A stretch of 64,000 nt of DNA from Scolanthus callimorphus (taxonomy: Eukaryota > Cnidaria > Anthozoa > Actiniaria > Edwardsiidae): positions 620,001-684,000 of the forward strand of contig CM066919.1 in assembly GCA_033964015.1 (NCBI GenBank). The letters run 5' to 3'. Every line of letters begins with the position of its first letter. Positions within the stretch are counted from its first letter, which is position 1. The notes under the pieces were generated by a model. That model ran no database searches and was not told the origin of the DNA. It saw only the letters and a program-made list of their open reading frames with translations. Below are positions 5,567-45,202 of this stretch, one piece after another. The position numbers and the translations under genes were made by a program.

Positions 5567-5575
5567 CAATGAAAA

Positions 5576-5585
5576 GTATAAATAG
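5576..5585 (+). promoter_or_regulatory. TATA-like box for the ATPase gene
   Basis: GTATAAATAG lies 48-57 bp upstream of the ATG at 5633. It is the mirror partner of the box at 5231-5242 across the minisatellite. Confidence 0.5.
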
Positions 5586-5632
5586 GAGTGTTTCCCGTAT
5601 CCTTACCCATTACCAAAACAAACGGTTGAAGT

Positions 5633-6466
5633 ATGAACATCATGGTAAAGAAAGCTGTTTGTCCAGAGTGTGGATCAGGATTTTCACGTCATTATGATAT
5701 GGAGAGACATAAAAAGAAATATCATCCAAACATCGTTACAGGTGAAACAAGGGAGTCAGAATCATCCATACCTTTCCGTTTTGGTGTTCACGAAACATGT
5801 GGTCCCTTTCAACTCCAACATCCTTTTACGTGTATGGTGGCGGGAATGACCGGAAGCGGGAAGACTGTTTGGGTCCAGAAACTCCTTGAGCATTGGCAAA
5901 AGACAATCTCGCCTCCACCCCAACGCATAGTCTGGTGCTATGCTCAGTGGCAGCCAGCCTACACCGCATTAGCCATGTCTACCCCACAAATAGAATTCGT
6001 TAAAGGAATCCCAACCAACATTGAGCAAGACTCATACTTTGACGTCAATGTGCGGAATCTCATTGTCATCGACGATCAGATGATTGAAACTGGGAATGAT
6101 AACAGGATTGCAAACTTATTCACCAAGGGATCCCATCACAGAAATCTGTCAGTGATTTATATCCTTCAAAACATATTTCACCAAGGAAAAGTCAATCGAA
6201 ACATATCCTTAAATAGCCACTACCTGGTCCTATTCAAGAACCCTAGAGACCAATTGCAAGTGATGACGTTGGCCAAACAAATGTATCCACGCAACACACA
6301 TTATTTTCTTGACAAGTATGAAGAAGCCGTCAGGAAACCTTTTGGCTACCTGTTTGTTGACTTAAACCAGCAACCAACGACACCTGCAGACTACGCGCCA
6401 ATGTCCTTCCTGGGGAAGTGTCAACCAATGAGAAAACGGAAGACGCCTTCGGGAAAGAGCTCCTAA
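5633..6466 (+). CDS. A32/FtsK-HerA-type genome-packaging ATPase with N-terminal C2H2 finger
   Basis: 277 residues, with a nested ATG at 5642. Residues ~9-31 form one C2H2 zinc finger (CPECGSGF...H...H). The ATPase core follows: Walker A GMTGSGKT at about residues 74-81, Walker B NLIVIDDQ at about 144-151, and a downstream polar QN motif (VIYILQN) typical of the HerA/FtsK group. Size and motif spacing match the DNA-packaging ATPases of Polintons, virophages and NCLDV. In those systems the enzyme pumps DNA into a capsid. Here it is the only conserved morphogenesis enzyme I can identify, which suggests packaging into particles supplied by another element. The frame is intact. The next gene starts 20 bp after its stop. 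Confidence 0.85.
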   Translation: MNIMVKKAVCPECGSGFSRHYDMERHKKKYHPNIVTGETRESESSIPFRFGVHETCGPFQLQHPFTCMVAGMTGSGKTVWVQKLLEHWQKTISPPPQRIVWCYAQWQPAYTALAMSTPQIEFVKGIPTNIEQDSYFDVNVRNLIVIDDQMIETGNDNRIANLFTKGSHHRNLSVIYILQNIFHQGKVNRNISLNSHYLVLFKNPRDQLQVMTLAKQMYPRNTHYFLDKYEEAVRKPFGYLFVDLNQQPTTPADYAPMSFLGKCQPMRKRKTPSGKSS

Positions 6467-6486
6467 AATTTCTTAGTTATCAAAAT

Positions 6487-6864
6487 ATGGATGTTTCTCC
6501 AGAGAAGCGGCGCATGAGAGAACTACACGACAAAATGAATGACATCCTTCACAGTCAAACTATGAGTGAAGGTGAAAAGGTCATACGATACTCGCAGCTT
6601 CAAAACGATTTGTTGCGAATGAAGCATCAAGCAAGTCACAACCCTCCAGCGAGTGTAGAACCACCAGTAACAACACCTACCTACACTACTCCCCTAAGTA
6701 TCCCGTTTTCATCACCCGAGCCAGCCACGATACCCTATTCGGCAAAGGTGGCAGAATCTCCCAAGACATCCTTTGTTCCGCCGACCCCAACACTTCCAGA
6801 ACTGACTTTGACACCGCCACCATCAGCGAGTATTACCCCAAAGAAGCCAAAGAAACCAAATTAA
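6487..6864 (+). CDS. Downstream ORF, Pro/Thr-rich C-terminus
   Basis: From the ATG at 6487, 125 residues. The frame is open from 6418, overlapping the ATPase end, but no earlier ATG exists. Residues 1-55 are charged and probably helical (EKRRMRELHDKMNDIL; GEKVIRYSQLQNDLLRMKH). The remainder is Pro/Thr/Ser-rich and ends in a lysine-proline tail. I do not recognise a family. It probably shares a transcript with the ATPase. An alternative frame opening at about 6810 runs to a stop at 6980-6982 and encodes a basic tail (LRRYRLRSYRSS), so the true C-terminus may be reached by a one-base shift. Confidence 0.5.
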   Translation: MDVSPEKRRMRELHDKMNDILHSQTMSEGEKVIRYSQLQNDLLRMKHQASHNPPASVEPPVTTPTYTTPLSIPFSSPEPATIPYSAKVAESPKTSFVPPTPTLPELTLTPPPSASITPKKPKKPN

Positions 6865-7006
6865 AAAATATCTTAAAGAATATTTGGATGATGATGCCGA
6901 TAAAGACGGACCGTATCTAAAATCGACGTTGAGACGCTATCGGTTGCGTTCTTACCGTTCTTCTCCGTATAAAATTAAATAAAAAAAAAATTGTAGTTAA
7001 TAGGGG

Positions 7007-7644
7007 AAAAACTCTACCTCAAGTCAAGAATACTAGTGAACAGACTTAGACTTGTAATCAATTTCTTAATAAAGCGTTTATTTACCTAACCGTTAGTGGT
7101 AGTATTTTATATAATAGTATTTTATGTAATCGATATTCATTCATATTATAATAAAGAGAATAAACCATATCTCAGCATCATGTTATCTCCGCATAAACAA
7201 AACCTTACACTATAATTAATATTCGAGTTGCAGTCAACAAACACTAATCCCTTACACAAAAGCCTTCCCTTAGTTAATCCTGGTATTGTCTCCCTTTGTT
7301 TTTCTTAATCCCTCCTGAACAAAAGCATTCCAGTGTTAATCCTAGCATTGTCTCCAATTACAGTAGGCTCATCACCACAATGCTCCTTCTATTGTCTGGA
7401 GACAAAAAAAGTGGGGGGGGGGGGGTATCCTATTGTCTCCCTTTGTTTTGAATACAATAGGCAATGACGTCGTCCGGCTCACCCGCATGCTCAGCCGCAG
7501 GCTCACCCGCAAAAAAAATAGTCTGTGACGTCATCCGGCTCCGCGGCTCCGCACCGGGCTCCGCACCGGGCTCCGCAAAAAAGCTCCGCGGCTCCGCACC
7601 GGGCTCCGCAAAAATAAGGGTAATTCGGTCCCTACTATACTACT
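7007..7644 (-). repeat. Right terminal inverted repeat of the Polinton-like element
   Basis: Inverted copy of 3384-4019. It includes the AT-rich segment with AATAAA-like signals for the rightward transcript, the long G tract, and the CCGGGCTCCGC repeats, ending ...CCCTACTATACTACT. Apparent coding sequence here is shared with the left TIR in mirror image. Confidence 0.9.
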
Positions 7645-20318: not shown

Positions 20319-20327
20319 ACCATATCA
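20319..20327. repeat. 9-bp target-site duplication, left (ACCATATCA)
   Basis: ACCATATCA immediately precedes the left TIR and recurs at 34242-34250 immediately after the right TIR. The AT-rich target also holds a second AAAATACTACCATA word just outside on the right, but only the 9-mer abuts both TIR tips. Confidence 0.85.
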
Positions 20328-20345
20328 CTGCCTCGTACCCAGGCG
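20328..20345 (+). repeat. Left TIR of the Academ-like element
   Basis: CTGCCTCGTACCCAGGCG; pairs with inverted 34224-34241 with two mismatches. A related internal word CCTCGTACCCAG occurs at about 22548-22559. Confidence 0.82.
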
Positions 20346-20402
20346 CGTTCTAGTGATTTTCGAGGCGAGAGCGACTGGGAGCGAGCTAGCGCGAAAGGCA
20401 TC

Positions 20403-20708
20403 ATGGGAAGGGCGAAGAAAATAACGCGCCTGGCAGATTACGTTTTCAAAATGGCGGAAACTAATTTATGCGGGAAGATGAGAGTTCACAAACTCGTTAA
20501 AATAGACAAAATACCCTGTCCTGACAGCTCCTGTGAAGACAAACAAGACTTTTTCGAGAGAAACGGTATCTCCCATCATTTCCGCGTAATACACAAGACC
20601 CCTTTCACCGATGCTAACCTCAAGAAGAGCTTAGCTCTTCGAAGAAAGTTGCATGCACAAGAAACCTTACAGATTCTTGATGAAATTTCTAAACGACGAA
20701 GGCGCGAG
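20403..20708 (+). CDS. Helicase gene exon 1 (zinc-finger-like)
   Basis: ATG at 20403, with a second in-frame ATG at 20451. It encodes CPDSSC-x13-H-x5-H (one C2H2-like finger) followed by a basic, probably helical stretch ending SKRRRRE at the donor GAG|GTAGAG, phase 0. Reading through gives a longer ORF to 20822 without domain features. I favour splicing because the frame of exon 2 fits directly. Confidence 0.6.
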
Positions 20709-23700
20709 GTAGAGCATACCACGTACACTAAATTCGGCTGTAGAATCTACTTTGAATGTAGTAAATTCCGGGTACATTTACTTTCAGGCGTGCTATCATC
20801 AAGTGAGAGTTGCGAGCTCTGAATTCACGATGGAATGGTTCACGGAAAACGACAGGGAAGCCGTCCAGTTGATTTGCCTTGTATTATACCGAGCAGGAAA
20901 ATTGAAACAGTACAGTAAAGGGAGTAGTCCTTGCGTCGTCGAGCTTTATGGCAAAGGAGTCCGTGCAAGCTTCAACTGTTGGTACACTAGTGAAACGCAT
21001 TTCCAAACCCAAGCATTCTTTGTCCAACGCGTGAGTGCTTAATTTTATAAAGTTAAGTTAACTTTATCGAGAGCGGGTCGAAGGTAAACAATATTTACAT
21101 TGTACTTCCTGTTTTGATAGGCCATTCAAATATTTGTGATTGAGGCAACATTTAGTTTTGAGCGATCCACGAAATATCCCCTTGGATTTTAGCCTATTCA
21201 AAACGAAAATCTGTTGCCTATGAAAATCTGTTCAAACACCTTGCAGCTGGTACTTCGGTACTTGAAATCCCGTTTAAATACCTGGGCTGATACCTGGGAT
21301 GTTTTTCCACTAGATTAGAATCCATTAATATGGTTTGAGCATAGAATGGCCAATATAGCTCTATGTACCCATTACTAGAACAACTTATTTCTATTTATTC
21401 ATACAACCGAAAATATTTCTATACGGCAGTTGTGGAAAACAGGCCAAAAGAAAACTAATACTTCCTGTTTTTTTTGGGTACAATTCATTTAAAGTTTTTA
21501 CAACCCTCCCCAACCACCATCACCAAATGTTCAGCTTTCTTACTGGATAAATATCATCTTGCCCCTTCTTTAATAGATAAACCTGAACAATTTACAGGCT
21601 AATAAAATTGAACTCTTGGGAAATTCTAATAAGATCAAGTCATTATTAGAACTACATCAAACTAGCAAAAGTATTATCCTTCAAATAAGGCCTGTTGACC
21701 GACTTGCATTGTGGTTTCAATTTTCATATCATGCAAAAATAGGTTGCTCGCCTTGACTTTCAATCTCCATTTTGAACGTATTGCACAAAATTTGCTAGTT
21801 ATTATAGATTTCAGTAGTCATTCAAGTTTATTCTAGGGCAGTTTGCTAATGTGTGTTTCCAAAAAATATCCATACCCCTCCCACGGAAGGGTGTTGAGAA
21901 ATGACCCCCCACCCCTCTGGAATTTCCAATCCCTTCCATAGGGGGGGTATGGATATTTTTTGAAACACACAATTTGTTTTTTTATAAATATCGAGTTATT
22001 TTTGTTTACCATCACAGCAGAGGATGTCGGACAGACATTCTTTAAATTGGTAAATCATTTTTTTCCATTTTCCATTTTTGAAATGATTTGCTCTCATACT
22101 AATGTTTAAAAAAGTATTCAACAGGTAAACAACATTACTGGTGGACAGGCTCATAAAACAAAAGAAGCACTGGGAACATCAGATGACAGAATGTGAAAAA
22201 AGGGAGCTATTTTTCTTGTTCTGTGTCATTCTTATCAACTCAGTAGTGTATGAGTGCACACATGGTAAAATGAATTCCCATGGAGACTGGGTGCAATTCC
22301 CGGATGAGTTTCATGCTATTGGCACAAACAAACAAAATAGCTTCCTTAGAGAATTTATGCCTTGGGGGCTACGATTGCCTGGGATTTTTCCTCTCACATT
22401 TCTGTCCTTTTTGGAAAAAAATGTAAAATAATTTTATTACAATAAGCCCATCAAGACATTCTTTGTTTGCCTTCTTGCTGTTAAAGTCCATGAACTTGGT
22501 GACAGAGGTAGGTAATCTAACATAGCCAACTAGGCTACCTCGTACCCAGACATCCCTAGTGTGCCGGAAAAGATAGGTAACATTATTTCCAGTCATTAGT
22601 AATAGCTTCTTCTCTGTCGCTTATTTGTTGGGAGACTGATGGCATGACCAAATGACCACAGCGTTGGGACTAGTTGTTATCACGCAGAAAATGAGCAATG
22701 TGCAATATAATATCCATGTTCCCCCCTTCTCACATTATAAACACATAGAAGACATGTAATGCTATTTTATAAAACCAATGGAAATCGGATTTCAGTGGTT
22801 TACTGAGCTACAGCTATTGTTTCCCAGCATCCCTACGCACATCAGAAATGTTTAATTGCTTAAATATTTCTACCTTCTTCATTGGAGGAATTTGCCATAG
22901 CCCTCCCCCTCTAAAATCAAACAGAAAAAATATGCCCCTCACCAGAAAAAAATTACAAATGATCCCTTGTTTGTTTGTTCTTTGGGATTTTACTGTGCAA
23001 AAATGTGATAACACATGTTGAGAATATGCTACTCGTAACTAATGATCTTAGGCCTAGGGCATACATTGGATTAAGGTCAAACCGATTACATTTTTTTCAA
23101 AAGATACAGACTCATACTTTCAAATAACAAATTATCTATTGTTTTAAATGTGTTTAGACGCGACTTAGGCCTTGAAAAATTTGAGATGGAACCAAATTAA
23201 AATGTCTATTATTGTCTTTCAGGATTTCAACCCAAGTGAGCTATCACCCCTCCAAGAACATACCTGTACTCCTGTTTCCATTGTTAACAATACAGAGAAC
23301 ACAGCAGTAGTAGCAGAATCAAGTGACAGTATTGTGTCAATCCTACAAAGTGTTTTCAAGCACCATTCTTTTAGAGATGGTCAACGGGATGTTGTAGAGT
23401 GTTTGCTTGATGATAAGGACTGCCTTGCAATAATACCAACAGGTGGAGGAAAAACGATTTGCTATTCTGTACCAGGGCTAGCACAAAAGGGTTTAACAGT
23501 TGTGATTAGTCCATTGCTTGCCCTTATCAGTGATCAAGTAGAACGACTAAGGAGCAAAGGAATCAATGTCTGCTTTGTAAACTCGAGAATGACTACTGAG
23601 GAAAGAGACACTGTGTTTCACGAACTTTCAAAACCAGACACTCAATATAAATTCTTCTATTCCACCCCAGAGGTAGCTCTTTCTAAGCAGGCAATGGATG

Positions 23701-24803
23701 CCTTCCAATCCATGAATACGCAAGGGAATTTAAAGAGATTTGTCGTCGACGAGGCACATTGCATAGATCTATGGGGACTAAACTTCAGGCCTACATTCCA
23801 AGAACTTTATAAACTAAAAACATTTGGCAAACCAATATGCGCCTTTACGGGAACTGCTACTCAGAGAACACAAGAAGTTATTATTGAGAAGCTGGCTCTG
23901 TCTGAGCCAGTCATCATTCAAATGTCATGCAATAGGCCGAACTTATTTTTTGAAGTTCAAGCAAAGAAAGAACAGTCTGGGAAAGAGGATCTCGTTCAAT
24001 TGATAAAAAAACGGTTTCCACAACAAGTTGGTATTGTTTATTGTTGTACAACAAGAGAGACCCTAGAGCTCGCACATGAACTTAAGAGCAGTGGTATAGC
24101 TACTGTGTACTATCACGGACAGCTGGACACGTTCGAGCAACAGGTTAATGCCCAAGCCTGGCTTCAAGGAAAGGCATACGTGATTTGCGCTACAAGTGCG
24201 TTCGGGATGGGCATAGACAAACCCAACGTAAGATTTGTTATCCATTTCTCTATACCAAAGTCATTGGAAGAATATTACCAAGAGGCAGGACGTGCAGGTC
24301 GGGACGGGGAGAGTGCAGCTTGTATCCTATTGTACAGATTTGAAGACAGAAGCAAACTTATGAGACTCATTTTTGCCGCTGTTGCTTCAGAGGAAATTAG
24401 GAATTATCAAAAGAAAGCGCTCGATGCGGTCGTGTCCTACTGTTTGTTAAAACAGTGCCGCAGAAAACTTATTCTGGACTATTTTGATGACCCCTCTGAA
24501 ATATCATGTGAAAACGGATGTGACAACTGCAAAAGTAAGCGAACCTCTACAACTAGAAACTTTTCTGTGGAAGCCAAAAGACTCTGTCAGTGCATAGAAG
24601 AAATGATGCTGAAATCAAGTAAGATATCAATCAAACAGATATCACTGACCTTCAAGGGGTCCAAATCAAAGCGCGACGTAGAAAGTAAAGGATTTCACCA
24701 AATAGCGTCATATGGAGTGGGCCGAGGCACATTCAAAAACGATTTCGATGCTGTGACTTTCATACACCACCTGATAACTGAAGACATCCTCATGGAAACT
24801 TGA
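20403..24803 (+). CDS. RecQ-type SF2 DNA helicase of the Academ-like element (5-exon model)
   Basis: Exons 20403-20708, 20788-21030, 21598-21670, 22018-22049 and 23223-24803 join in phase (0,0,1,0) to 2,235 bp = 744 residues. Each has GT-AG borders (e.g. GCGAG|GTAGAG; TTGTCTTTCAG|GAT). The first ~218 residues are element-specific, with a C2H2-like motif (CPDSSC...HHFRVIH) in exon 1 and a compact hydrophobic domain in exon 2. The last exon carries the whole helicase. The product should unwind DNA during excision or repair of the transposon in the nucleus. The small exons 3-4 are the least certain part. An ATG at 20451 is an alternative start. It is convergent with the transposase gene. Confidence 0.65.
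20788..21030 (+). CDS. Helicase gene exon 2
   Basis: Acceptor TTTACTTTCAG; 81 codons, phase 0 to 0; donor CAACGC|GTGAGT. It contains WFTENDREAVQLICLVLYRAGKL and VRASFNCWYTSETHFQTQAFF. No family recognised. The codon-like composition and good splice sites argue that it is real. Confidence 0.6.
22125..22196 (+). CDS. Possible alternative terminal exon of the 5' helicase-gene exons
   Basis: Acceptor TATTCAACAG then 23 sense codons (VNNITGGQAHKTKEALG...) and TGA at 22194. It fits exon 4 (22018-22049) in phase 0 and would end a 241-residue protein containing only exons 1-4 sequence. This could be an alternative isoform that separates the N-terminal part from the helicase, or a chance match. Confidence 0.3.
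   Translation, partial: VNNITGGQAHKTKEALGTSDDRM
23223..24803 (+). CDS. RecQ helicase core exon (motifs I-VI, zinc-binding, winged helix)
   Basis: 526 residues from the acceptor at 23222. Motif 0 FRDGQRDVVE; motif I TGGGKT at about residues 73-78 of the exon; motif II DEAHCIDLWG (usually DEAHCxSxWG; here D and L replace the common S and Q); motif III FTGTAT; the YYHGQLD region; SAFGMGIDKPNVRFVIH; and motif VI QEAGRAGRDG. The RecQ zinc-binding cysteines follow (C in LLKQCRRKLILDYF, then CENGCDNC), then an RQC-type winged-helix segment to the stop. There is no HRDC domain. The exon is uninterrupted and looks functional. Confidence 0.9.
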   Translation, partial: DFNPSELSPLQEHTCTPVSIVNNTENTAVVAESSDSIVSILQSVFKHHSFRDGQRDVVECLLDDKDCLAIIPTGGGKTICYSVPGLAQKGLTVVISPLLALISDQVERLRSKGINVCFVNSRMTTEERDTVFHELSKPDTQYKFFYSTPEVALSKQAMDAFQSMNTQGNLKRFVVDEAHCIDLWGLNFRPTFQELYKLKTFGKPICAFTGTATQRTQEVIIEKLALSEPVIIQMSCNRPNLFFEVQAKKEQSGKEDLVQLIKKRFPQQVGIVYCCTTRETLELAHELKSSGIATVYYHGQLDTFEQQVNAQAWLQGKAYVICATSAFGMGIDKPNVRFVIHFSIPKSLEEYYQEAGRAGRDGESAACILLYRFEDRSKLMRLIFAAVASEEIRNYQKKALDAVVSYCLLKQCRRKLILDYFDDPSEISCENGCDNCKSKRTSTTRNFSVEAKRLCQCIEEMMLKSSKISIKQISLTFKGSKSKRDVESKGFHQIASYGVGRGTFKNDFDAVTFIHHLITEDILMET

Positions 24804-25119
24804 GAAGCGTATCTGATACGTGTTCCACCCCTTACATTACTCTAGGAGATAAGGCACAGCTTTTAAAAGACAATAGTCTACAAATTATGTTAGCTCTGTG
24901 ACTTTATTTGTAATGAAGTTCACGATGTGCTTTTATTTCGTCCTATCAAGCTCCCACAAACAGATGCATTATGAATATGTAAGAAAGAGTCCAATCAAAG
25001 AGATGAATGCTATATATTGTAAGTTTACACGGATTCTGAAAAAAATCAGCAGTGAAGATTGGCCGACCCAATCACCCGTAGAAACCTACTCGCATACTAT
25101 CACGAATCCTGCAACTGCC

Positions 25120-25395
25120 TCCGCTACTCGCTATTTAGCAATTATTCCTCGAGCCCGAATGGGCTCTGAGTCAATAGCCCATGAGGGCGAGAGGAATAAT
25201 TGTTGTAGTCAAATCACACTAGTAGGTCAATTTTTATAGCCAAAAACGTTTTCTGGTCTGCTCATTTGACATTATGTGGCTTCAAATCCAACACTTTTTG
25301 CTACTAGTAGGCTATAACTTATAGCCTAGTAGTAGCTCAACCAATCAGAATGCAGCATTGACAATAGACCACTAGTGTGATTTGACTAATAAGTA
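25120..25395 (+). mobile_element. MITE copy 1 (CAATTATTCCTC / TAGTCAAATCACACTAGT family)
   Basis: Contains an inner palindrome CAATTATTCCTC...GAGGAATAATTG and outer inverted words TAGTCAAATCACACTAGT (25206-25223) and ACTAGTGTGATTTGACTA (25372-25389). A direct second copy lies at 26022-26300 with about 80% identity by eye. Confidence 0.6.
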
Positions 25396-25809
25396 ATATG
25401 TAGTGAGTAGCAAAATCGCTAGCGCAAAACTTTCTAAAACCAGGAAACTTAGTGAAAGGTTTAGCAACAACTCGAAGGTAGTATTATACTAGTGGGTTTC
25501 TAAAACGACTAGGCTACTCGTTCTCAACTCGGCGCTACGCGTATTGCAGAAAACGAGAACGAGTCTAATTGTTAAATAGTATAACTGCTCAAGTGACTAT
25601 AAGAAATTCCGGTTGGTAATGTTTGTTTTCCTACTGGCGACTGTAACCAATTCAAAGCATTTTGGGTGTGCGCGCGTGATTATGTGCTGTTTGTGAAAAA
25701 ATCCCCCCCAAACAAGTTTTTTGTCTACAAATCTTTTGAGCAATTATCTAACTTATTTATACCAGTCGCCTCAGTCTCCATTATCGACTTCTTGTCGGTG
25801 ACTCGCCGA

Positions 25810-25985
25810 TACAGGCATCAAGAGTTCCAGACTCGCGGTGCACGAACAATGCATCATTAGTGATGAACAAGGAAAAAAAGTGAGCCCCTTGCTATCAAAA
25901 CGGCTTTTGGGCTCACTTTTTTCCTTTGTTCAACACTATAATGCATTGTTCGTGCACCGCGAGTCTGGAACTCTTGCTGCCTGTA
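25810..25985. mobile_element. Near-perfect hairpin element, ~176 bp
   Basis: The left arm starting TACAGGCATCAAGAGTTCCAG is mirrored by the right arm ending CTGGAACTCTTGCTGCCTGTA. A second internal pair AAAAAAGTGAGCCC/GGGCTCACTTTTTT lies near the centre. Fold-back MITE or single-strand-forming repeat; no ORF. Confidence 0.7.
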
Positions 25986-26021
25986 TAATCACGTAGCCTT
26001 CGGCGAAATAGCGACCAACCA

Positions 26022-26300
26022 CTCTATTTAGCAATTATTCCTCGAGCCCTAATGGGCTCTGACTCAATAGTTAATGAGCTATTGCTATTATGCTATTGAC
26101 TCAGATGCCATGAGGTTGAGAGGAATAATTGTTTTAGTCAAATCACACTGGTAAGTCAATTTGTATAGCCAAAAACGTTGGTCTGGTCATTATTTTGTAA
26201 ATCCGACACTTTTCGCTACTAGTAGGCTATAACTTATAGCCCACCTCAACCAATGAGAACGATGCAGCATCAACTGTGACTTGACTAACAAGGAATAGCT
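26022..26300 (+). mobile_element. MITE copy 2 (same family as 25120-25395)
   Basis: Direct repeat of copy 1 with a ~30-bp internal expansion (GAGCTATTGCTATTATGCTATTGACTCA) and a shorter right half. Confidence 0.6.
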
Positions 26301-26607
26301 ATAGATTGTAGCAGTCCTGTGGTGCCTCTTTGAGAAATATATATCCAACAACCTCAAAATGCCGCGTGTTTGTTACTTCGTTCGCCATCTCGTGTGACGG
26401 CGACAGTACGACACGGACCGTGTGTACAAGTTTGCGCTGTGGTTGGCATTTTTCTTTCGGAAACTGAAACTGAAACACAAAAACGCGAGGTTCCGCCCTG
26501 TGCTGTGATCGTAGAACGCTCTCTTTTCACAGACATGCGAAATCTGCTCTAGCTGGAAGCAACCACTCCCGAGTTATTCGTATTAATTTCCATTATAACA
26601 GATCTAT

Positions 26608-26984
26608 TCACTTTTCAGCGCTCTGGGACTTTTGGAAGGTCAGAAGTCTGAACTCTGGAAAACACGCGTGTAGTTTATCCTGGAAACGCTCAACTACTTT
26701 TTTTTGCCCCTTTTGCACTACGTTGACGTGAGCCTTCGAAACAGGTTTTCCTGCTTCACCAGAGATGGGGAGCTGCAAAGCCTTGCGTCCTGGCGAATGC
26801 GCGAAGAACTTGTGGCGCAAGCAAAACCACATGCCTTTCAGCTGATCCGGGAAGGGGTCTTGCTCCTTATGTTTTCTTGTTGGGTGATAATCAAATGCAC
26901 TAGTACTAGCGAATACCTCTCTAGTTTTGCAGAGCATCTGAATATTCGCCATCAATCTGGAACACATCTGGACGGTGGTGTGAC
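26608..26984 (-). CDS. Putative transposase exon 7 (C-terminal)
   Basis: Acceptor TTTTTTTTCCAG at 26985-26986; then 2 bases plus 125 codons ending with a stop. The phase matches the donor A|GTAGGT at 27287 exactly. Contains FRCRH-like basic segments (KGMWFCLRHKFF) and a lysine-rich end. No recognised fold. Confidence 0.6.
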
Positions 26985-29900
26985 CTGGAAAAAAAACTTT
27001 TTTTTAATAACAAAGACCTCAATACAACACGGATTAGTAATAACCCCAAAACATTCGTAAATGGTATTGACGATTAGGGTCAACGAAACATTAAAAAGCA
27101 GCAATTTGACATTAAAGTCATATTCTCTCTCTTCTATCATTCACACTCCAACTCTCCCGATTTGTCTCCAACGCGACCCAATCTCCAAAACCTAAACAAT
27201 TTCGTTTCATCACAACGTTTAGATTATGAGATTCTTCGCTGGGCATCTCTAATAAGAAGGAACAGAGAGATGTAATCGTAACCTACTGGCAGACGCAATA
27301 AAATAGTTTTCGTCATGTATCAAAAACGCACCTGTTGCGTAGTTCTTTAGAGGCTGGACGATGTAGGTTTCTACGTACTCATCCATGGCGATATTGTGGC
27401 CATCCTTTCCTGAGAGATTCACACTCGAGTTTTGTCGCAACATCTCTCTAAATGCGAGAGGCCATCGAGAGGAAAAGTTCACTACAAATACAAGAGACTC
27501 TGTCCAGTAGTTTTTAAATTTCAGTTGAGCAAACACTGGTAGAAGGAGCACCCAAACAGTTTCCCGTAGTATACCATCTCCTTCCTTTGTGGCAGCGACG
27601 AACATGTCTAGCAAAGGCCCAAATAGACAGAAAAGTTGCTGATGGTAAAGATGGCCTTCGTCACTCTCCCGGCACATTTCTAGCCACTTCTTAAATCGCT
27701 CTAACAGGATGACGCCATGGTTTCCGTTCTTTCTCATGCACTGCTGGAGCTCGGCCTGAGTTGGAAAAAAATTTGACGTACTGAATTCTTTTACAGCAGC
27801 CATGCCATATGAAATGCTGCCATCTCGTACTGCCTCTTTTATCCTATTTAAATTTTGCTCTTGGAATTTTCTCTTTCCGAAAGCTTCCTCTGTGAGCTTT
27901 GGCCGCTTCATGACCGTGTTGATAATTTTGTGTAATCCGCCTTTGGAATGGGCTTTAAAGGCAGCTTCACAAAGGAATCCTTTGGCATGCATGTCCCCTG
28001 GGATTTCAGCACACCAACTGTATGCCGACTGGTCTTTCTGCTTTACCCCACGGTTAACTTTGCATGTTCCGACGTCCCCGACAACGGCATTGGGAAACCC
28101 AAGATCTGTCCTTCTATCATAGGTCCAGTTCTCTTCTTCCTCGCCCTGCATATCCTGGTCTTTAGTTTGCGCCTGGGTAGTCGCGTCATCGGGGTTTTCA
28201 TGCGTCAAACCACTTACAAAACGCTCAAATTTTTGACAGGCATCGCGCGCTTTCTGGAAAATCTCGATGAGCGCATCATTCTCCATGATGGAAGCCATCT
28301 CTAGTGGGCTCGGAAACTCGCTGAACAATTCCCCTTCGCATTCGGCAAAGTTCTCTAACAATAGGTGGCACATATCTAGGTCACCATTGATGACAGCTAG
28401 TGTCAACGGGGTAGCACCACATCCTTCCTTTGCATTAGGATCAACACCGACTGAGAGCAGTACTTTCACCAGGGTGGGGTTCTTTATCTCGACAGCAGCA
28501 TGGAGAGGAGTGCGGCCAAAATGATCTCTTGTCGAACAAAACTTGCCTCGATCTTCCTTGAATCTCACTAGCAAAGCTTCTAATCCATTTTCCTCCTCGT
28601 TGTGAACTGCATTCCAAACTTTTTCCCTGGTCTTTTCTATCAGCTTTTTCAGTTTCCCGTCCTGTTGCTGTCTCCGCTTTTTCAGACCTTTCTGAGTGGT
28701 GGATGGCTGATTCCCGTCATCTTCCCTAGCGATATCATCATCATCTACATCGTTATCACTCTCGTTTTGACCATCGTCCTCTAGCTGCTTTTCAGTGTTT
28801 TGAATGGCTTGTTCAAATTCGGCCATTTCCTCGCGGTGGATGGAAATCGAATCCATGAACTCGAAGTGTTTCCTGGCGGCCTCAATATCATATCTGTTCT
28901 TTGTATGGTCGAAAGGCAAATAAGCAGTGGTGTGATTGCATGGTATGCCAAATTCTCGCCCAAACTCCTCAAAGATTTCCGCAGTCCCAGTTAAAGTAGC
29001 ATTGTTTTCAAGTGACAATGGTAAGATGATCGTGTCAGTCTTTCCAACTTGTTTCCTGGTACACAGCGTACTGGCTTCAGGAGCTTTAACTTTGAACTTC
29101 CGTACGGGTGCTGTAGTAAAGTCTAGAGATTTTAACCATACGTTGAATTCAGCCTCATCCATTTCATGAATTGGCTTGTCTGACTCAGGAAGATTCAGTC
29201 CTTTGTTTAGGAGCTCCATTAGGTATTTATCTTGCCAACTTTCCCACAAAGTTTGATGATCTGCCATGGATTCTGGAAACAAAAAAAAGAGTTCATCGAG
29301 CGTTGTATTAGTCATTATTATTTGGAGTGTATGTTGGCCACGAAGACCCTCCTGAAAAACAAAAGTTAGGACCCTCCCCTAAAACTATGAACAAAAATGT
29401 ATGCAGTGACCCCCCCCCCCCCTATTATCCACATTTGCTTAAAACAAAGTATATTCTCAGGAGAGTAAACTCATGCAATGCATTCAATTACTGGCAGTGC
29501 CAGAGAGACAAAGATGTTGTCTACCATAATGTAGGGGGCATACTCCCCCAGCAACAAAATTCATTTAAGATACATAAAGCTATCATTTATCATTTTCCCA
29601 AAGAACAATTAAGTTTTATTAGTGTTTAAGAAAGAGTCCAACTTTTACAGCCAAAGACTCAGAAGCGTCCCCCTCTAGAGTGAGATAGTTCATTCTTGGA
29701 ATATATTGGATCCACTATTCGATTCAATAATGCATTTGGCTTGGGAAACCGTCTTTCAATTTAAGTCACTGGTTTTATAAATCTTGGAATACTGATCAAC
29801 AGTTTCTTCTCTAAATGAACGAGGGAGAGATTTACTAAGCTCGCAAAGTATACCAGGCCTGCCATATTGGTAAAAACAAACTCACAAAAAGGTTCCCTGT

Positions 29901-32900
29901 GAATTTTTCCATATATGGAAGCGCCTCTGTTGCCTATCATGCAATCAAAAAGTAAACCCAGTTCAAATTGAAAGACTTTTTCCCAAGCTGAAAGTATATT
30001 TGAATCAAATAATGGATCCAAGAATCAACTCATTATTGCGCTTTAGGGGGGAGGGGGCAACATTTGGATAAATCCTAAGCTTAAGTACTGTAGCTTACAG
30101 GCAGATACCTTGGCATTGACTGGGTGTTCTATATTTCCCACAGATCTGTCAATTCAAGACAATTTTGAAATTTGTACACCTCAAAATGTTTGGAAAATGT
30201 TTACAGTAAAGTCAACCTCAAAAATGCACAACCAACCAAGCATTTGAAGCTCCAAATCATAGCAGCCTTTTTCCTGATAGTTAAACTAAATGCTTTTTGA
30301 GTTATATTTTTCTGGATATAACCTTGTGATAAAAGGATTTTTTCGAATCAGATAAATATATTTAACAGATTGTTATGGCAAATTTCTAAAACTTTAAATA
30401 TATAAAATATTGTCTGGTGAGAAAAGTACCTTCACAGAACTAACATCATTTTATCATAAGATGTTATCCAGAAAATAATCCGAAAAGCATTATGTGCACT
30501 ATAAATGACTTCATGGTGATACAACTAAAGAAAGCTGAGATATGCCATAAAAGGGCAATTGACACAAAAATTAAAACACTTCGTAGTAATAAAGAAAGGA
30601 ACTAGGATAATGTTTTATGTAATATGGCCAGTCATTTCACTTAATGTAAACTTTTTGATAATAGGGAGTCAGATAATATATTTTACTCCTTATATTCAAA
30701 CTATGTAATATCCTATTTCTTATGTTACAGTGTATGACTCCACACCTGAGAGTTAAAACATAGCTTTTTTGGAAAAGGAACTCTCAGAACTACCAAATCC
30801 AATCAAAACTTAACATTAGAGCAGATTTCAGAGACTATCGTGAATAATTCACATTACTTTGTAATTTTTCCTATAGGTTTAATTCAGAGTTGGTGTGATT
30901 GGTTCAGTCACATGAAATTCGCTCTAACATTATGTCATTATATATTGACTTACCCAATAGAATATCCTCTGCTCTCAGATCACCAAATTCCCTTTGTGGT
31001 TTCGTTGCGGTTTCCTTGCAGGCCATAAGGTGTTCTAGACCACTCATATTTGGAATGATTGCACCACGGCCAGTGAAATTCCACATCTTCGGCCCCAGTG
31101 TTTTGAAAAGCCTGTGGTGGCGCTTATTCCCTCTATAGAGATTGATGTTGTCCATCAAAAATATCACTGGACTTGAGGTAGGGCACTTCTCAGTAATTAT
31201 GTCAGCAAATCTTGCCAGCTTCTGATCGAAAACATTTATCCTATGAAATAATTAGCAGTCAAATTACGGTCATGTTTTCTTGGTCAAAAATTAAAACTGG
31301 TTTGATAGAAAGATATGGGAGTAAAAGGCTATGTCACACAAAGAAACTTTTCTTGTAACTGCCAGTTGCAGCAAAACATGAACACCCGATTTGCATCATG
31401 CAATGCAACAAATTATTGCATTGAAAAATCCAAAAAAATATAAACAGCTGTCCATGTGACATGGTTTTGCAATCGATTCGTCATTGCATATTATGCAAGT
31501 TGCATGAAAAATTCCTTTGTGTGACATGGCCTTAAGGAAAGGAAAACTTTGATTTACATGTATACTCAGCTGTTGGCAACAAAAGGTGGCAACAAACAAT
31601 ACTAGCATTTTTTTGGAAATCCAGACCCTTTCAAAACAGATTTTGCTTTAAATTCAGGGCACCCCCTTGAAATTGTGACCAAAAATTCAAAATCCTCTCC
31701 CCTTTTCCTGTAAGAAAGCCTTCCCAAGAATGTTCTACCAAAAATTAAGGCCCCCAAAAATGGTAGCCCCCACAATCATTCCCCAAAAATAATGAGTACT
31801 TCCTTAGAAAAATATACTTACAATGTATCCCAGCAAGGAGTCAATCCCATGGCATGTAACATATTTATGAACTGCTTCCCAGCACCATAAGTAATGCACA
31901 TCATTCCGAAAACCAGGTTCACATCATTGTCAAAGCGCTGGCTGCGTACACTGGCAAGGCATGCTAATGCATTTACACCACATTTCATTCTATGTTCTGC
32001 TGTTTTTTGGATGCTCCGTCGTGCGCTTCCAGTTACTAAGAGGGTGGACATGACATCATCAAGTAACGGACACTGCTCTTTGAATTTTTCCATCAATGCT
32101 TGAAAAATTTCACCATGCAATATTTCATCTGGTGTTCCATCTTTCAATCCTAGCTTGATGATGCCTTCAAACCTTTTCATTTCTTCATTGGCCTTTTCTT
32201 TCTGGCTACAAGTCAATGACTGTACCAGTAGATCTTGCTCCCTCTGAAGTTTGCTCAATATGGACTGGTACTGCTGTACAAGAGCAGCAGTTAGATCTTG
32301 GTATTCTCTCATGAGGGCACCACAATGCATGGCGAGGGCAACAGCTTTATCATGAACCTCGTCAGTGAGTACTGCCCATTGTGTATTGATTGTCTCCTCC
32401 ACTTCCAAAAGCTTAATCTTAATAGCAGCAATGCTTTCACCCTGGATGCTATCTGGCAAAGTGCTTGAAAACCTTGTCAACACAGACTGCTTGAGCCTCA
32501 GATGTGTGTAAAGTTTTCTAGTGGACTTGAGTTAAGGAGAAATTGCATAATGTAACCATAAAATTCAAAATAGTCCCCATGCATAGTGTGAAGGGAAGGA
32601 ACTGTAAGAGGAAAGCTCAGATTAGTCCTAGTTCATGAACCTTCATGTAAATAACACAAGAACTGAAATACCTTAACAGCAATAAGTACCAATGCAAGAC
32701 TAATGAGTCCTATTGGCTTCAATTCATAGAAGAAAAATACAATGGCACAAGCTTAAGGATACTGTTTACTTTTCCCCTCAATTAGCACCTTCTTCTTTGT
32801 AGAATTGGGAAATTCTTGTTTAATTGCACGGGAGAGGCGACTTTTTTGTTCAGGGTCCATACCCATAACCTCTAACAAAAGCGCCTGTGGAATGGTTTTT

Positions 32901-33884
32901 GTAGCATCATCCACAGGTTCAAGTGTTTCCCTCAGTTGGGCACACAGCTGCTCCCGTCTAGTGTCACATTCATATCTCCCTAAATTGAAGGCTGTAAAAA
33001 TCGAAATAATGTCTGATTGATCACCTGATGACATCATACAAACAATAGAACCAAATTCATACAAATGGTTGAAAACTTCACACAAAAATGTCATAGACAG
33101 TTGATATGTTGAAAGTCAAGCAAAAGGGACTGCACACTCATGCAAAATTTCTCACCTCGCTTTGCTTTAGACTGGACCGCTCTAGACTCGGGTGTGAGGA
33201 AATGCTTCCCTGCACCTTTGGCACTTGGGTCTGGGGTACTTGACGTAGCATCTAAACATGCAAATAATTTAGAGATTAAAGAGGCTGTTAACATGGAACT
33301 TATGGTTAATTAACAGATAAAAATAAAATCATTGCATAAATCCATTTCCGTCTACTTCAAATAAGCTAAATTGACTTGAATTTGACGGTTGAAAGATTAT
33401 TTATCAAACGTAAACTAGTATTTTGGCTCTGCAAAAAGTTTTTGTAATGTTTTTCGGTCATCTTTTTCAATTTAACACGTGTTCTGACAACAGCATCATA
33501 TATAATGGAAAATCAGGAAGTCTATGCAGGCGTTTCATAGTTTTTTTTCGAGAAGTATTCAAGGAAAATAACAAGAACATGTTTGTCTTTTTGGTAAGTT
33601 ACACATGAAGTTATTATGCGAGTTATCCCGCATAATAACTCCATGGTTATACCGGGAAAGTGCGGGAGACACTTCGCACTTCCATGTTTTCAAAGAGTGC
33701 CGACGGATTTCAATGATATTTCCCCGTTTTGAAGGAGTTAAAATAGTATTTCTTATTCAAATACTTCTTCAGGCCTTCCAGGATCTGCAGGTACCCTGAA
33801 AACCTCAAAATTTAAAACGCTTTTACCTTCTATATTCAGTTCTTGTAAGGACACATCAAGTTCCTCGATGTCGCTCTCCGCCAT
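26608..33884 (-). CDS. DUF6589-like, ankyrin-containing putative transposase (7-exon model, 1,236 aa)
   Basis: Exons 33827-33884, 33156-33251, 32789-32991, 31822-32525, 30954-31240, 27287-29272 and 26608-26984 have GT-AG borders. All junction phases agree (1,1,0,2,1,1), giving 3,711 bp with no internal stop. Order in the protein: short acidic N-terminus; helical region (~120-350); FLMDNINLYRG at ~380-390, the conserved aspartate of DUF6589 proteins; acidic tract and KKRR basic patch (~616-660); ankyrin repeats (~699-757); VVGDVGT (~848) and PGDMHAKGF (~875); a conserved C-terminal block with MDEYVE (~1080). Two Asp motifs and one Glu could form a DDE-type site (inference). It should catalyse transposition of the surrounding element. 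If the last splice is not used, the protein ends 12 codons later at 27249. Confidence 0.72.
27287..29272 (-). CDS. Putative transposase exon 6 (main exon, ankyrin and C-terminal DUF6589-type block)
   Basis: Acceptor TTTTTTGTTTCCAG at 29273-29274, then 1,986 bp open. Carries the acidic tract, bipartite basic patch, two ankyrin-type repeats (FGRTPLHAAVEIKNPTLVKVLL; GATPLTLAVINGDLDMCHLL), GDVGTCKVNRG, GFLCEAAFKAHSKGGLHKI, and the all-helical C-terminal block (LFGPLLDMFV; FVVNFSSRWPLAFREML). The ankyrin repeats sit between the presumed catalytic motifs, like an inserted protein-binding module. Confidence 0.85.
29340..29425. repeat. GACCCTCC/poly-C low-complexity repeat in intron 5
   Basis: Same dispersed family as 12405-12590 and 36600-36720; includes a C14 run at 29410-29423. 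Confidence 0.6.
29690..30045. mobile_element. Inverted-repeat MITE in intron 5 of the transposase gene
   Basis: The left arm TTCTTGGAATATATTGGATCC...GCTTGGGAAACCGTCTTTCAATTTAA is mirrored at 29955-30025 (TTGAAAGACTTTTTCCCAAGC...GGATCCAAGAATCAA). Arms ~70 bp, total ~350 bp, non-coding. Confidence 0.6.
30285..30505. repeat. Second inverted repeat in intron 5
   Basis: ATGCTTTTTGAGTTATATTTTTCTGGATATAACC... is roughly mirrored by ...ATGTTATCCAGAAAATAATCCGAAAAGCAT at 30461-30490. Imperfect arms; AT-rich MITE-like sequence. Confidence 0.4.
30954..31240 (-). CDS. Putative transposase exon 5 (LMDN catalytic motif)
   Basis: Acceptor ATTTCATAG, donor TTGG|GTAAGT, 287 bp, phase 2 to 1. Encodes FDQKLARFADIITEKCP and the FLMDNINLYRG motif, the best-conserved part of DUF6589-type proteins. 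Confidence 0.82.
31822..32525 (-). CDS. Putative transposase exon 4
   Basis: Acceptor AACTCAAG, donor CATT|GTAAGTAT, 704 bp, phase 0 to 2. A long helical, coiled-coil-prone region (residues ~120-230) is followed by CPLLDDVMSTLL and VFGMMCITYGAGKQFINMLHAMGL, a segment typical of the region just before the LMDN motif in DUF6589 proteins. Confidence 0.8.
32789..32991 (-). CDS. Putative transposase exon 3
   Basis: Acceptor GATTTTTACAG, donor AAG|GTGCTA, 203 bp, phase 1 to 0. Encodes LGRYECDTRREQLCAQLRET and a basic end. The weak donor was chosen because it is the only one that keeps exon 4 in frame. Confidence 0.65.
33156..33251 (-). CDS. Putative transposase exon 2
   Basis: Acceptor TTTGCATGTTTAG, donor GCGAG|GTGAG, 96 bp, phase 1 to 1. 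Low-complexity Ser/Pro/Lys content typical of a linker. Confidence 0.65.
33827..33884 (-). CDS. Putative transposase exon 1 (start codon)
   Basis: ATG at 33884 in context AACATGGCGG; 19 codons rich in Glu/Asp/Leu, then donor GAAG|GTAAAA in phase 1. It is the only upstream ATG exon that joins exon 2 in frame. The initiation context resembles the alternative helicase start at 20451 (AAAATGGCGG). Confidence 0.6.
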
Positions 33885-34223
33885 GTTACACTCGTGGGGT
33901 CATTCGAACTACTAAATCAAGATTTAAACTATATTTCGTACGTTTCGTGGCCAACAAACGATGAGGTGATATTAGCTGACTACATATGCAAAACAAACAA
34001 GCCAATTTCCCTGAAAATTCGCAAAGAAAGCGGCTATATTGGTCGAGGTCCAGAAATCGGGATTTTTGACCCAGAAATCGTGCAAAATCTGCGAGGCGTC
34101 TCTTTCTCTGGTTTGAGCCTTCCCATGATGCATTGCGAAATCGAACCGTTCCCAAGATGCATTGCGCGCTCGCTACCAGAACACTCGCAAGAGGCTTTTC
34201 TCTCTTTTTCTACCAAATAGAGA

Positions 34224-34241
34224 CGCCTAGGGACGAGGCAG
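34224..34241 (-). repeat. Right TIR of the Academ-like element
   Basis: On the minus strand CTGCCTCGTCCCTAGGCG; pairs with 20328-20345. Confidence 0.82.
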
Positions 34242-34250
34242 ACCATATCA
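34242..34250. repeat. 9-bp target-site duplication, right (ACCATATCA)
   Basis: Exact copy of 20319-20327, directly after the right TIR. Confidence 0.85.
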
Positions 34251-42292: not shown

Positions 42293-42301
42293 GTCAAACC
42301 A

Positions 42302-45202
42302 TTGAATGCCGTTTGTTTGGAGAAATCTAACATTACCAAACAATCCGTATACAATTTCCAGTTACCAACCGTTAGTGGGTTTAAATTAGCTTCTCTAAAT
42401 GTTAATAGCTTGTCTGCCCATATTGACGAAGTTCGCATTCTTCTTGATAATAATAACTTAGACACTCTCGCAATTCAAGAAACCAAATTAGATTCCTCTC
42501 ATTTAGACTCTGATATTCAGATTCCGAATTACGATTTAATTAGAAGAGACAGACTTAGCAATCAAGGTGGAGGCGTGTGTTTTTATGTGCGATCAGTAAT
42601 CAATTTCTCCGTGCGCAATGACCTCGCTAATTCTGATTTAGAAAATCTATGCCTTGAAATACGGATGCCGCACTCTAAACCGCTCATTGTCGTAAACTGG
42701 TATCGGCCTCCTGATTCATCTGTGAGACTCTATCCTCAAATCGAGAATCTAATCGGATTACTCGACCAGTCAAATCTAGATTTCTTTTTGGTAGGAGATA
42801 TGAACGCTAATATGGCCGCTACTACTTACGATAATGACGTTAGGCATCTAAATGACATCGCTGATATTTATGGCCTACACCAGCTGATAAACGAACCCAC
42901 ACGTATAACAGAAAAATCATCTACTCTTATTGATTTGATTTTTACTAACATTCCTGAAAGGGTTGTTTGTTCTGGTGTTGCCCATATTTCTATTAGCGAC
43001 CATAGCCTTGTATATGCATATCGAAAATTAGCTGTTGAATTACCTAAAAGAGGGCATAGCTCAGTAACCTTCAGAAATTTCAAACACTTTGACAGCGTAA
43101 ACTTTCGAAATGATATTATGAGTCAAGATTGGAATTTTGATAGCCAAACAAAGGATCCCAATCAGCTTTGGTCTGAATGGAAATCAAAATTCCACGCCAT
43201 TGCTGATAAACACGCACCACTTTGCACAAAGCGTGTGCGCGCTAAAGCGTCTCCGTGGATTTCCGCTGACTTGAAAGAAAAAATGCATAAACGAGATGTT
43301 ATGAAAATAAAAGCCATCAAGTCTAACAATCCACACGATTGGGCAAATTTTAAAAGAACGCGCAACATGGTCAATTCTGAAATAAAGCGTACTAAAGAGC
43401 GCTATTACCAAAATAAATTTGCTGAATCTGACGGTGATCCTCGTAAAACGTGGCGGGTGATCAACGAGCTTACTTCTCGGAAAACTAGCAAGCCTTCAAT
43501 TAAGGAGTTAAGACTGGATGGAGAACCAATAACGAATCCATCTGTTTTGTCGAACGCTTTCAATGATCACTTCTCTTTAATTGGTCCGAAGCTCGCAGCA
43601 GAAATACCAGTGTTTAACAGTACTAGTCCTGTTAGTTTTTATGACTACATTCCGAAGGTGGTTTCGAATTTCCAATTCCATCAAATTGGTAATAGCCAAG
43701 TTATAAATCTACTAAAGAAAATAAAGAAGACAAAAGGGGCTGGTCTTGATCACATTTCAAGTCGACTTGTTCTAGAGTGCGCCGATCTTATTGCACCACA
43801 ATTGACAATTATTTTCAATGCCTCGCTAATTTCAGGCATTTTCCCAGACGACTGGAAATGTGCTCGAGTCACCCCCCTCTTTAAGCAAGGCGATAAATGC
43901 GATATAGATAATTATCGTCCAATATCCGTGATCTCAGTAATAGGCAAAGTTTTTGAAAGAATAGTTTATAATCAAATATTTGCTTATTTGTCTGAACACA
44001 ATGTTCTTTCCAAATACCAATCTGGTTTTCGAGCTCTCCACTCTACTCAAACCGCATTGCTTGACGCAACTGATAGCTGGTCTTATAATATTGACCAGGG
44101 CAATGTAAATGCTGTTGTTTTTTTAGATCTGAAGAAAGCGTTCGATACAGTTGATCACAATATTATGTTATCTAAACTAAATTGTTACGGTATTACTGGA
44201 ATTGCGCATAAATGGTTTGCCTCATACCTAGACAATCGTGCACAAAAATGCCTTGTCAATGGTTCCCTTTCCAAAACATGTTTTCTGGAATGTGGAATTC
44301 CCCAGGGAACAATTCTAGGACCTTTGTTGTTTTTACTTTATATCAATGACCTTCCGAATTGTCTAAGCAAATCGATACCAAGAATGTACGCAGATGATAC
44401 TCATCTGACATTGTCTGGAAATGATGTTGGCTCCATCCAGTCTACTTTAAACGATGACTTGCTAAACATTAGCTGTTGGCTCTCGGTGAACAAATTAACT
44501 CTCAACATGACTAAAACTGAATTTATGTTAATTGGCTCTCGGCAAAGACTGAATAATTTCCCGCACCCCCCTAATCTAGAAATAAATAATATACCAATAA
44601 AACAATCTCATTCGGCAAAATCTCTAGGAGTTATAATCGATGAACATTTGACATGGGAAACACATGTTGATACAATATCTAAGAAAATTGCTGCCGGTGT
44701 TGGAGCTTTAAAACGAATCAGGAACTGTGTACCAAGAACAACTCTACTTGATGTTTATCAAGGCCTCGTGCAATCTCATTTTGATTATTGTAACATTGTT
44801 TGGGGTTCCTGTGGTAGTACAATTGCTAATAAACTACAAAAGCTCCAAAACCGAGCAGCCCGTATTATTACGAATTCTAATTACGATGCCGATGCCAACC
44901 TCCTTTTTGACCAGTTAGGATGGCGCAATCTCCACTGCCAACGTCAAATAACTAAGGCAATAATGATGTTCAAATCTCACAATGAACTAGTGCCTAGTTA
45001 CTTGTCCTCTAGATTTGTTCACCGAGAGGATATATCTCCTAACTATAATCTTAGAAACTCCGAGAATAAGTTGGTTGTTCCCCTGCCACGTACTAACTAT
45101 TATAAAAACAGCTTTAGCTATAGTGGTGCTGTTCTGTGGAACAAACTTCCCCCCAACTTAAGAGAAACTCAGTCTCTTCAAATTTTCGGCGACAGTTATT
45201 AA
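42302..45202 (+). CDS. LINE ORF2: endonuclease-reverse transcriptase
   Basis: 966 codons, intact. The start is taken at 42302; the frame opens just after ORF1 and the exact initiator is uncertain. Endonuclease (~25-235): LNVNSLSAHIDEV, QETKLDSS, VGDMNANM, SISDHSLVY. RT (~500-770): CARVTPLFKQGDK, NYRPISVISVIGKVFERI, QSGFRALHSTQTALL, FLDLKKAFDTVDH, GIPQGTILGPLLFLLYINDL and the active site MYADDTHL. It ends in a CR1/Jockey-type C-terminal region (FDYCNIVWGSC, KLQKLQNRAARII). It nicks target DNA and primes reverse transcription. All catalytic motifs are present. Confidence 0.92.
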   Translation: MNAVCLEKSNITKQSVYNFQLPTVSGFKLASLNVNSLSAHIDEVRILLDNNNLDTLAIQETKLDSSHLDSDIQIPNYDLIRRDRLSNQGGGVCFYVRSVINFSVRNDLANSDLENLCLEIRMPHSKPLIVVNWYRPPDSSVRLYPQIENLIGLLDQSNLDFFLVGDMNANMAATTYDNDVRHLNDIADIYGLHQLINEPTRITEKSSTLIDLIFTNIPERVVCSGVAHISISDHSLVYAYRKLAVELPKRGHSSVTFRNFKHFDSVNFRNDIMSQDWNFDSQTKDPNQLWSEWKSKFHAIADKHAPLCTKRVRAKASPWISADLKEKMHKRDVMKIKAIKSNNPHDWANFKRTRNMVNSEIKRTKERYYQNKFAESDGDPRKTWRVINELTSRKTSKPSIKELRLDGEPITNPSVLSNAFNDHFSLIGPKLAAEIPVFNSTSPVSFYDYIPKVVSNFQFHQIGNSQVINLLKKIKKTKGAGLDHISSRLVLECADLIAPQLTIIFNASLISGIFPDDWKCARVTPLFKQGDKCDIDNYRPISVISVIGKVFERIVYNQIFAYLSEHNVLSKYQSGFRALHSTQTALLDATDSWSYNIDQGNVNAVVFLDLKKAFDTVDHNIMLSKLNCYGITGIAHKWFASYLDNRAQKCLVNGSLSKTCFLECGIPQGTILGPLLFLLYINDLPNCLSKSIPRMYADDTHLTLSGNDVGSIQSTLNDDLLNISCWLSVNKLTLNMTKTEFMLIGSRQRLNNFPHPPNLEINNIPIKQSHSAKSLGVIIDEHLTWETHVDTISKKIAAGVGALKRIRNCVPRTTLLDVYQGLVQSHFDYCNIVWGSCGSTIANKLQKLQNRAARIITNSNYDADANLLFDQLGWRNLHCQRQITKAIMMFKSHNELVPSYLSSRFVHREDISPNYNLRNSENKLVVPLPRTNYYKNSFSYSGAVLWNKLPPNLRETQSLQIFGDSY

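Follow-up and report, generated by a model that had tools for sequence, protein, structure and literature searches.

The founding paper on AcademH is said to be Kojima 2020, Mob DNA 11:15. A title cited in PMC10045372 presents AcademH as helicase-encoding DNA transposons of animals and fungi. In the available part of PMC10045372, AcademH target-site duplications (TSDs) are 9 or 10 bp and those of AcademX 3 or 4 bp, and the lengths are related to the presence of a helicase versus a nuclease. RecQ helicases are also carried by KolobokH, which is described in the available part of PMC9587614 as encoding a RecQ helicase together with a DDD/E transposase and as reported only from fungi; the same part describes a red-alga Kolobok with RecQ on the complementary strand. 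Transposons that carry a helicase are, as a kind, already known. The target of Kolobok is TTAA.

The window analysed here is a 64,000-nucleotide stretch of the Scolanthus callimorphus genome (contig CM066919.1, positions 620,001 to 684,000). It is highly likely that positions 20328-34241 of the window are an autonomous DNA transposon of the AcademH type, almost complete and inserted recently, with a helicase gene and with a DUF6589 protein as its putative DDE transposase. The likeness to AcademH lies in the element-encoded SF2 helicase and in the 9-bp TSD, a length within the range that PMC10045372, as far as available, gives for that group. AcademX belongs to the same Academ superfamily but has a 3-4-bp TSD and a nuclease (PMC10045372, available part), and it is ruled out by the 9-bp TSD and helicase of the window element. 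No nuclease family exceeded its Pfam cutoff in the seven ORFs scanned. The identity of the DUF6589 protein and its ankyrin insertion are possibly new. Among the titles listed from the openly available literature, none links DUF6589 to a transposase or describes the ankyrin insertion.

Ends and copies of the element

The features of the element are collected in Table 1. Terminal inverted repeats (TIRs) and a 9-bp TSD had been claimed in the original prediction, and their positions are exact. The window was scanned for direct repeats of 9 bp, exact and separated by 1-30 kb, that adjoin inverted 18-mers. The pair at the element ends was the sole one in the window at ≥16/18, the runners-up matching at 14 and 13 positions. 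The same scan of 20 Markov-simulated windows returned no pair at ≥16/18 and six pairs at ≥13. Positions 20328-34241 are a mobile element bounded by exactly these ends.

Table 1. Ends, exons and intergenic block of the element, in window positions.
Feature	Positions	Strand	Remarks
Left TSD	20319..20327		ACCATATCA
Left TIR, 18 bp	20328..20345	+	Outer boundary of the element; CTGCCTCGTACCCAGGCG; 16/18 with right end
Helicase exon 1	20451..20708	+	Start codon 20451; C2H2-like finger by eye; tblastn with P0131, GT donor
Helicase exon 2	20788..21030	+	tblastn with P0131; AG/GT splice sites
Helicase main exon	23223..24803	+	Pfam DEAD, Helicase_C, RecQ_Zn_bind, RQC; frame break near 24797-24803
Intergenic block	25131..26270		Repeat-rich, partly palindromic; probable nested miniature element
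DUF6589 exon 6	26608..26984	-	C-terminus, stop
DUF6589 exon 5	27332..29272	-	Ankyrin repeats interrupt the DUF6589 domain; D844 at 28074-28076, D871 at 27993-27995
DUF6589 exon 4	30954..31240	-	LMDNINLYRG motif; D379 (31150-31152) as candidate for the first catalytic residue
DUF6589 exon 3	31822..32525	-	Homologous proteins, splice sites
DUF6589 exon 2	32789..32991	-	Splice sites, open frame; likeness to P0042 by eye
DUF6589 exon 1	33156..33294	-	Start codon 33294; weakest exon, splice site and open frame only
Right TIR	34224..34241	-	Reverse complement CTGCCTCGTCCCTAGGCG; 16/18 with left end
Right TSD	34242..34250		ACCATATCA

Both ends were searched against the Scolanthus genome (597 Mb, 302 contigs). 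The left-end query comprised 382 bases, with the first TIR base at query base 10, and 40/809 first-look candidates were scored, which makes the copy number a lower bound. At least 41 left-end matches were listed, and 30/41 begin exactly on the first TIR base (20328). The remaining matches are the window itself and 10 that begin at query bases 6-19, or -4 to +9 of the TIR start. For the right end 40/386 first-look candidates were scored and at least 43 matches were listed, of which 28/43 end exactly on the last TIR base (34241).

Both ends are present in 20 of the 23 loci examined in the genome, the window counted. An exact 9-bp TSD flanks 17 of these 20 loci, two others match at 8/9 positions, and one has no TSD. 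The 17 exact TSDs comprise 16 different sequences. The search with the element ends, proposed as a check in the original prediction, gave one of the outcomes sought: other copies with the same TIR and different TSDs. The one sequence that occurs twice belongs to L044 and L045, probably a single insertion that was duplicated. No end pair was recognised in 3/23 loci (L039, L046, L047); under looser matching L047 has a 9-bp duplication, ACAGACGGT, which stands outside the 17 counted.

The copies fall into several sizes. Two further long copies, C2 (14,002 bp) and C4 (14,635 bp), have two ends and a TSD. The ends of the C78 copy are ~20.8 kb apart, and this copy is not in the TSD tally. Ten two-ended loci are mid-size copies of 4.1-8.4 kb, identical to the window at 95-100% over the first ~144 bases and at 86-88% over the last ~530 bases. 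Three of them (L029, L031 and L037) were compared as protein and have gene matches only as scattered remnants, and no frame >120 codons was found in the two of these three whose ORFs were listed. Seven miniatures measure 221-259 bp. Such a mix of long copies, shortened forms and miniatures is typical of an autonomous element amplified together with its deletion derivatives.

The long copies were compared with the window over aligned codons only, gap-broken codons being excluded. In the transposase gene C2 differs by 4 substitutions in 1,197 aligned codons and C4 by 50 in 1,196; in the helicase gene C2 differs by 6 in 687 and C4 by 18 in 337. By blastn C2 is ~98.5-99.1% identical to the window, with gaps, over most of the element. 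The claim of a recent insertion is supported by the few transposase substitutions of C2. The dN/dS ratios of the transposase gene, 0.27 for C2 (4 changes) and 0.43 for C4, suggest constraint on that gene. Those of the helicase gene, 1.36 for C2 (6 changes) and 0.71 for C4 (18 changes), come from numbers too small to read. Frame breaks or gaps occur in both genes of the C2 and C4 copies.

Helicase and DUF6589 genes

Two multi-exon convergent genes had been recognised in the interior, a RecQ-type helicase on the plus strand and a DUF6589 gene on the minus strand, and both are confirmed by Pfam. They are not the sole content, as had been supposed, since the repeat-rich intergenic block also sits between them. 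Parts of this block recur in DNA beyond the C78 and C4 copies. The element had been called apparently intact as well. This stands for the DUF6589 gene, which has six exons with GT-AG junctions and encodes 1,216 aa with no stop. It does not stand for the helicase gene, described as free of stops, whose reading frame breaks close to its end, with the final ~32-34 residues, as relatives have them, in a different frame.

The best solved-structure match of the helicase is BLM (3.4e-91), and the protein shares the DEAD, Helicase_C, RecQ_Zn_bind and RQC domains with BLM/RecQ helicases. It differs from them in its N-terminal exons, which bear the C2H2-like finger. Both exons are short, lie at the 5' end and align with a protein of Dendronephthya gigantea, P0131 (LOC114543889). 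Between 21030 and 23223 no match was found by tblastn with seven helicases.

A helicase tree of 68 rows included 36/41 of P0122-P0162 (≥480 aa) and 31/63 of P0179-P0241 (≥450 aa, every second), while P0163-P0178 were excluded. A single branch with support 96/84 split 37 element-like rows from 31 RecQ/BLM rows, labels that were set by a drop in identity and not by element context. The element-like helicases group together in this tree, distinct from its host and bacterial RecQ rows. Two long-branch RecQ rows join beside the element side.

A profile search of the minus-strand protein had been proposed. The exon 5 protein matched Pfam DUF6589 (PF20231) at 72.7 bits against a cutoff of 27. The Pfam entry gives no function, and the domain in the window protein differs from the profile in that linkers and ankyrin repeats interrupt it. 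Homologues such as P0043 (996 aa) and P0048 (1,155 aa) extend over exons 3-6. A protein search from the pre-ankyrin part returned five proteins, the query included. Among 24 pattern matches in viral contigs there were no relatives. Genome contigs yielded one relative from 26 (L049, Alistipes bin), whose matched residues 625-849 are largely the ankyrin part, and it was set aside.

Evidence on the DUF6589 protein as the probable transposase

Within the Scolanthus genome 63/410 DUF6589 candidates were scored, giving at least 70 matches in 36 clusters, and 80/518 helicase candidates, giving at least 93 matches in 69 clusters. Among the scored matches, 28/36 DUF6589 clusters have a helicase cluster ≤15 kb away, and the two are convergent in 28/28. 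Uniform placement would put a helicase near 0.35% of DUF6589 clusters. The 36 clusters are partly copies of each other and do not equal 36 independent events. No scored helicase lies within that distance of the other 8/36. Host RecQ genes and other repeats may be among the 41 helicase clusters left unpaired. Three transposase/helicase pairs (P0018/P0130, P0031/P0143 and P0056/P0171) come from source contigs of equal size, which suggests but does not prove a shared contig.

Gene copies with other termini, named beforehand as an outcome that would weigh against the element, do exist. One such family was closely examined and has its own TIR and 9-bp TSD, which favours the reading as an element. 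This second family was found at C4:30.88 Mb and C12:26.55 Mb, where 11.7 kb align at 98% and carry the same convergent gene pair, with proteins ~30% identical to those of the window. Its TIR is 204 bp (99.5%), and copy A has a 9-bp TSD, CCTATTATC. Copy B has no recognised opposite end in the stretch examined. The end of the second family, TAGCCTCCTCCGCAGGC, and the left end of the window element, CTGCCTCGTACCCAGGC, have GCCTCnTnCnCAGGC in common; the right end of the window element departs once from this motif (TAGGC). A possible third family at C5:11.3 Mb has the motif GCCTCGTCCCCAGGC on its helicase side, and an opposite end matching GCCTCGTCCCCAGGC was not found in the DNA examined. Since miniatures ending in this way are frequent in the genome, we did not count the motif as evidence.

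The predicted fold was taken from the full-length model of P0048 (mean pLDDT 73.5, pTM 0.68), in which 264/1,155 residues fall below 50 and which is usable in parts. Its strands lie at 298-307, 324-334 and 446-453, followed by a helix at 460-474, a strand at 788-792, a helix, a strand at 813-817, and then helices. The predicted core has the strand order of RNase H, b1-b2-b3-a-[ankyrin]-b4-b5. D302 lies within b1 and D793 immediately past b4 in the model, positions that would fit a DDE/RNase H core, D819 is invariant across 62 aligned rows, and the candidates for the third acidic residue are E828, E963 and E984. The strand order of the model, taken with the linkage to the helicase, makes the DUF6589 protein very probably the transposase. 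The original prediction of this role is supported by the 28/36 pairing, the convergence in every pair and the modelled strand order; DDE catalysis itself is inferred.

Foldseek and VIA-align searches with the model each gave ankyrin-type or ankyrin-fusion chains in all of the top 50 rows, so the absence of transposases among these rows carries no meaning. The post-ankyrin piece folded alone gave a poor model (pLDDT 45.6), which was left unused, and a profile built from seven sequences of this piece found no match among solved chains at E ≤10. The same piece matches DUF6589 profile positions 109-361 in the row shown, and 7/7 rows match DUF6589. The pre-ankyrin piece of the window protein gives a weak match to profile positions 30-97, at E 0.013 and short of the cutoff, and the pre-ankyrin pieces of P0048 and P0042 have no match to the DUF6589 profile. 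The ankyrin block would thus be placed between profile positions ~97 and 109, or window protein residues ~554 and ~841. With the profile broken at these residues, ~285 residues, ankyrins among them, would separate strand 3 and helix 1 from strand 4. The model supports an ankyrin insertion inside the DUF6589 domain, and the weak first match (E 0.013) is the soft spot of this placement. To our knowledge no well-studied transposase has its insertion domain between strands 3 and 4. The insertions known in hAT and RAG follow strand 5.

We give even chances to a fuller proposal: that DUF6589 supplies the transposase of Academ-type elements with a helicase, and that in this cnidarian lineage its RNase H core is split between strands 3 and 4 by an ankyrin-repeat module, through which the protein could dock onto host chromatin or its helicase partner.

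Classification and proposed mechanism

Several features bear on the assignment to AcademH made in the original prediction. The TSD is an exact 9 bp in 17/20 loci and also 9 bp in copy A of the second family. The helicase carries DEAD, Helicase_C, RecQ_Zn_bind and RQC and is paired with 28/36 DUF6589 clusters. TIRs are present, 18 bp at 16/18 in the window element and 204 bp in the second family. Membership in AcademH is likely on helicase and TSD length. A rival reading is a mobile element outside Academ, a separate DDE superfamily with DUF6589 and a RecQ helicase that would resemble AcademH in TSD length only. The unusual place of the ankyrin block within the DUF6589 domain (profile positions ~97-109) is consistent with such a superfamily, as is the presence of RecQ helicases in another superfamily, KolobokH (PMC9587614, available part). 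Against it, helicase and 9-bp TSD are together AcademH features in animals and fungi (PMC10045372, available part). We consider a separate superfamily improbable.

The element might instead belong to KolobokH or another known helicase-bearing superfamily, a reading with very little probability. Its 9-bp TSDs have no fixed sequence, and the 17/20 loci with 16 TSD sequences, set against the TTAA target, rule out Kolobok. The window element shares with KolobokH a RecQ helicase beside a transposase, and the red-alga Kolobok has its RecQ on the complementary strand, but KolobokH is confined to fungi in the available part of PMC9587614. Names given to related proteins would fit two host genes lying between fortuitous repeats: relatives in Paramuricea clavata are called GA-binding subunit beta-1 and ankyrin repeat domain-containing 12, and relatives in Dendronephthya gigantea helicase Q-like 4B and SGS1-like. 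That such genes are easily annotated as host loci had been anticipated, and for some relatives it holds. The host-gene reading is refuted by a multi-copy element with precise ends and differing TSDs, and by the convergent order of 28/28 pairs; we assign it almost no weight.

For an AcademH-type element, a DUF6589 transposase of the DDE type would bind the ends, GCCTC...CAGGC, excise the element and join it to a target whose strands are cleaved with a 9-bp stagger. Repair of the gaps by the host would then produce the 9-bp duplication. The RecQ-type helicase may act as a partner, e.g. by unwinding the ends or clearing strand-transfer intermediates.

If this account is correct, the uncharacterised Pfam family DUF6589 would gain a function, and some cnidarian gene models named 'RecQ', 'ankyrin' or 'uncharacterised' would be mobile-element genes. 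One genome holds long copies that are nearly identical, together with deletion derivatives and miniatures that have the same ends. With such copies, and with ends and TSD known, one could test what a helicase contributes to this kind of transposition.

Relatives of the element and possibly exchanged ends

Ten mid-size elements of the same genome (L029-L038, 4.1-8.4 kb) match the window family at 95-100% in their terminal ~144 bases, whereas their interiors, where alignable (around 32775-33370), show only 70-74% identity. From this difference, the elements look as if their ends had been swapped with those of a sister family.

A second family, of the same design but distant, spans 868-12665 of L062+L063 (G000:C4:30.88 Mb, in the window's own genome) and ends in a 204-bp TIR with a 9-bp TSD. 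A third family carries an exact GCCTCnTnCnCAGGC motif on its helicase side (reverse strand of L067 near position 1196, approximately G000:C5:11309007); the opposite end was sought in the DNA around the locus and was not found.

For ten RecQ-like genes of this genome, no DUF6589 match was scored in the surrounding 15 kb on either side. They have 34-35% identity over query positions of about 60-390 or 60-440, with frames open for 480-621 codons, and perhaps belong to a different helicase-bearing repeat.

Neighboring elements and a probable nested element

Direct and inverted repeats occupy 25131-26270, between the helicase and DUF6589 genes. Portions of this block, probably a nested miniature element, were found also beyond the further copies of the window element on C78 and C4.

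Minus-strand ORFs running from 11809 down to 2301 form a retroelement that we label BEL/Pao-like, split by an ORF block at 3150-7530. One ORF of the block has weak similarity, below the Pfam cutoff (E 1.4e-4), to A32, the packaging ATPase of poxviruses, a hint that the block is an insert resembling a small DNA virus or a Maverick. Given the LINE-, DIRS- and Gypsy-like elements, the flank of the window element is mobile-element-dense.

Coordinates of elements and genes (window positions unless a contig is named)
Feature	Position	Strand	Remark
DUF5641 and integrase matches	2301-3152	-	within BEL/Pao-like retroelement
Inserted-block ORF	3969-4859	-	
Inserted-block ORF	4885-5364	-	
Inserted-block ORF	5630-6466	+	weakly A32-like
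Inserted-block ORF	6361-6864	+	
LINE-like	42293-45202		reverse transcriptase with endonuclease
DIRS-like (by eye)	54953-58776		tyrosine-recombinase ORF adjoining RT-like ORFs
Gypsy-like element	59128-63147		
Unpaired RecQ-like genes	G000:C107:286124, C4:16415625, C2:24057835, C6:23889451		examples
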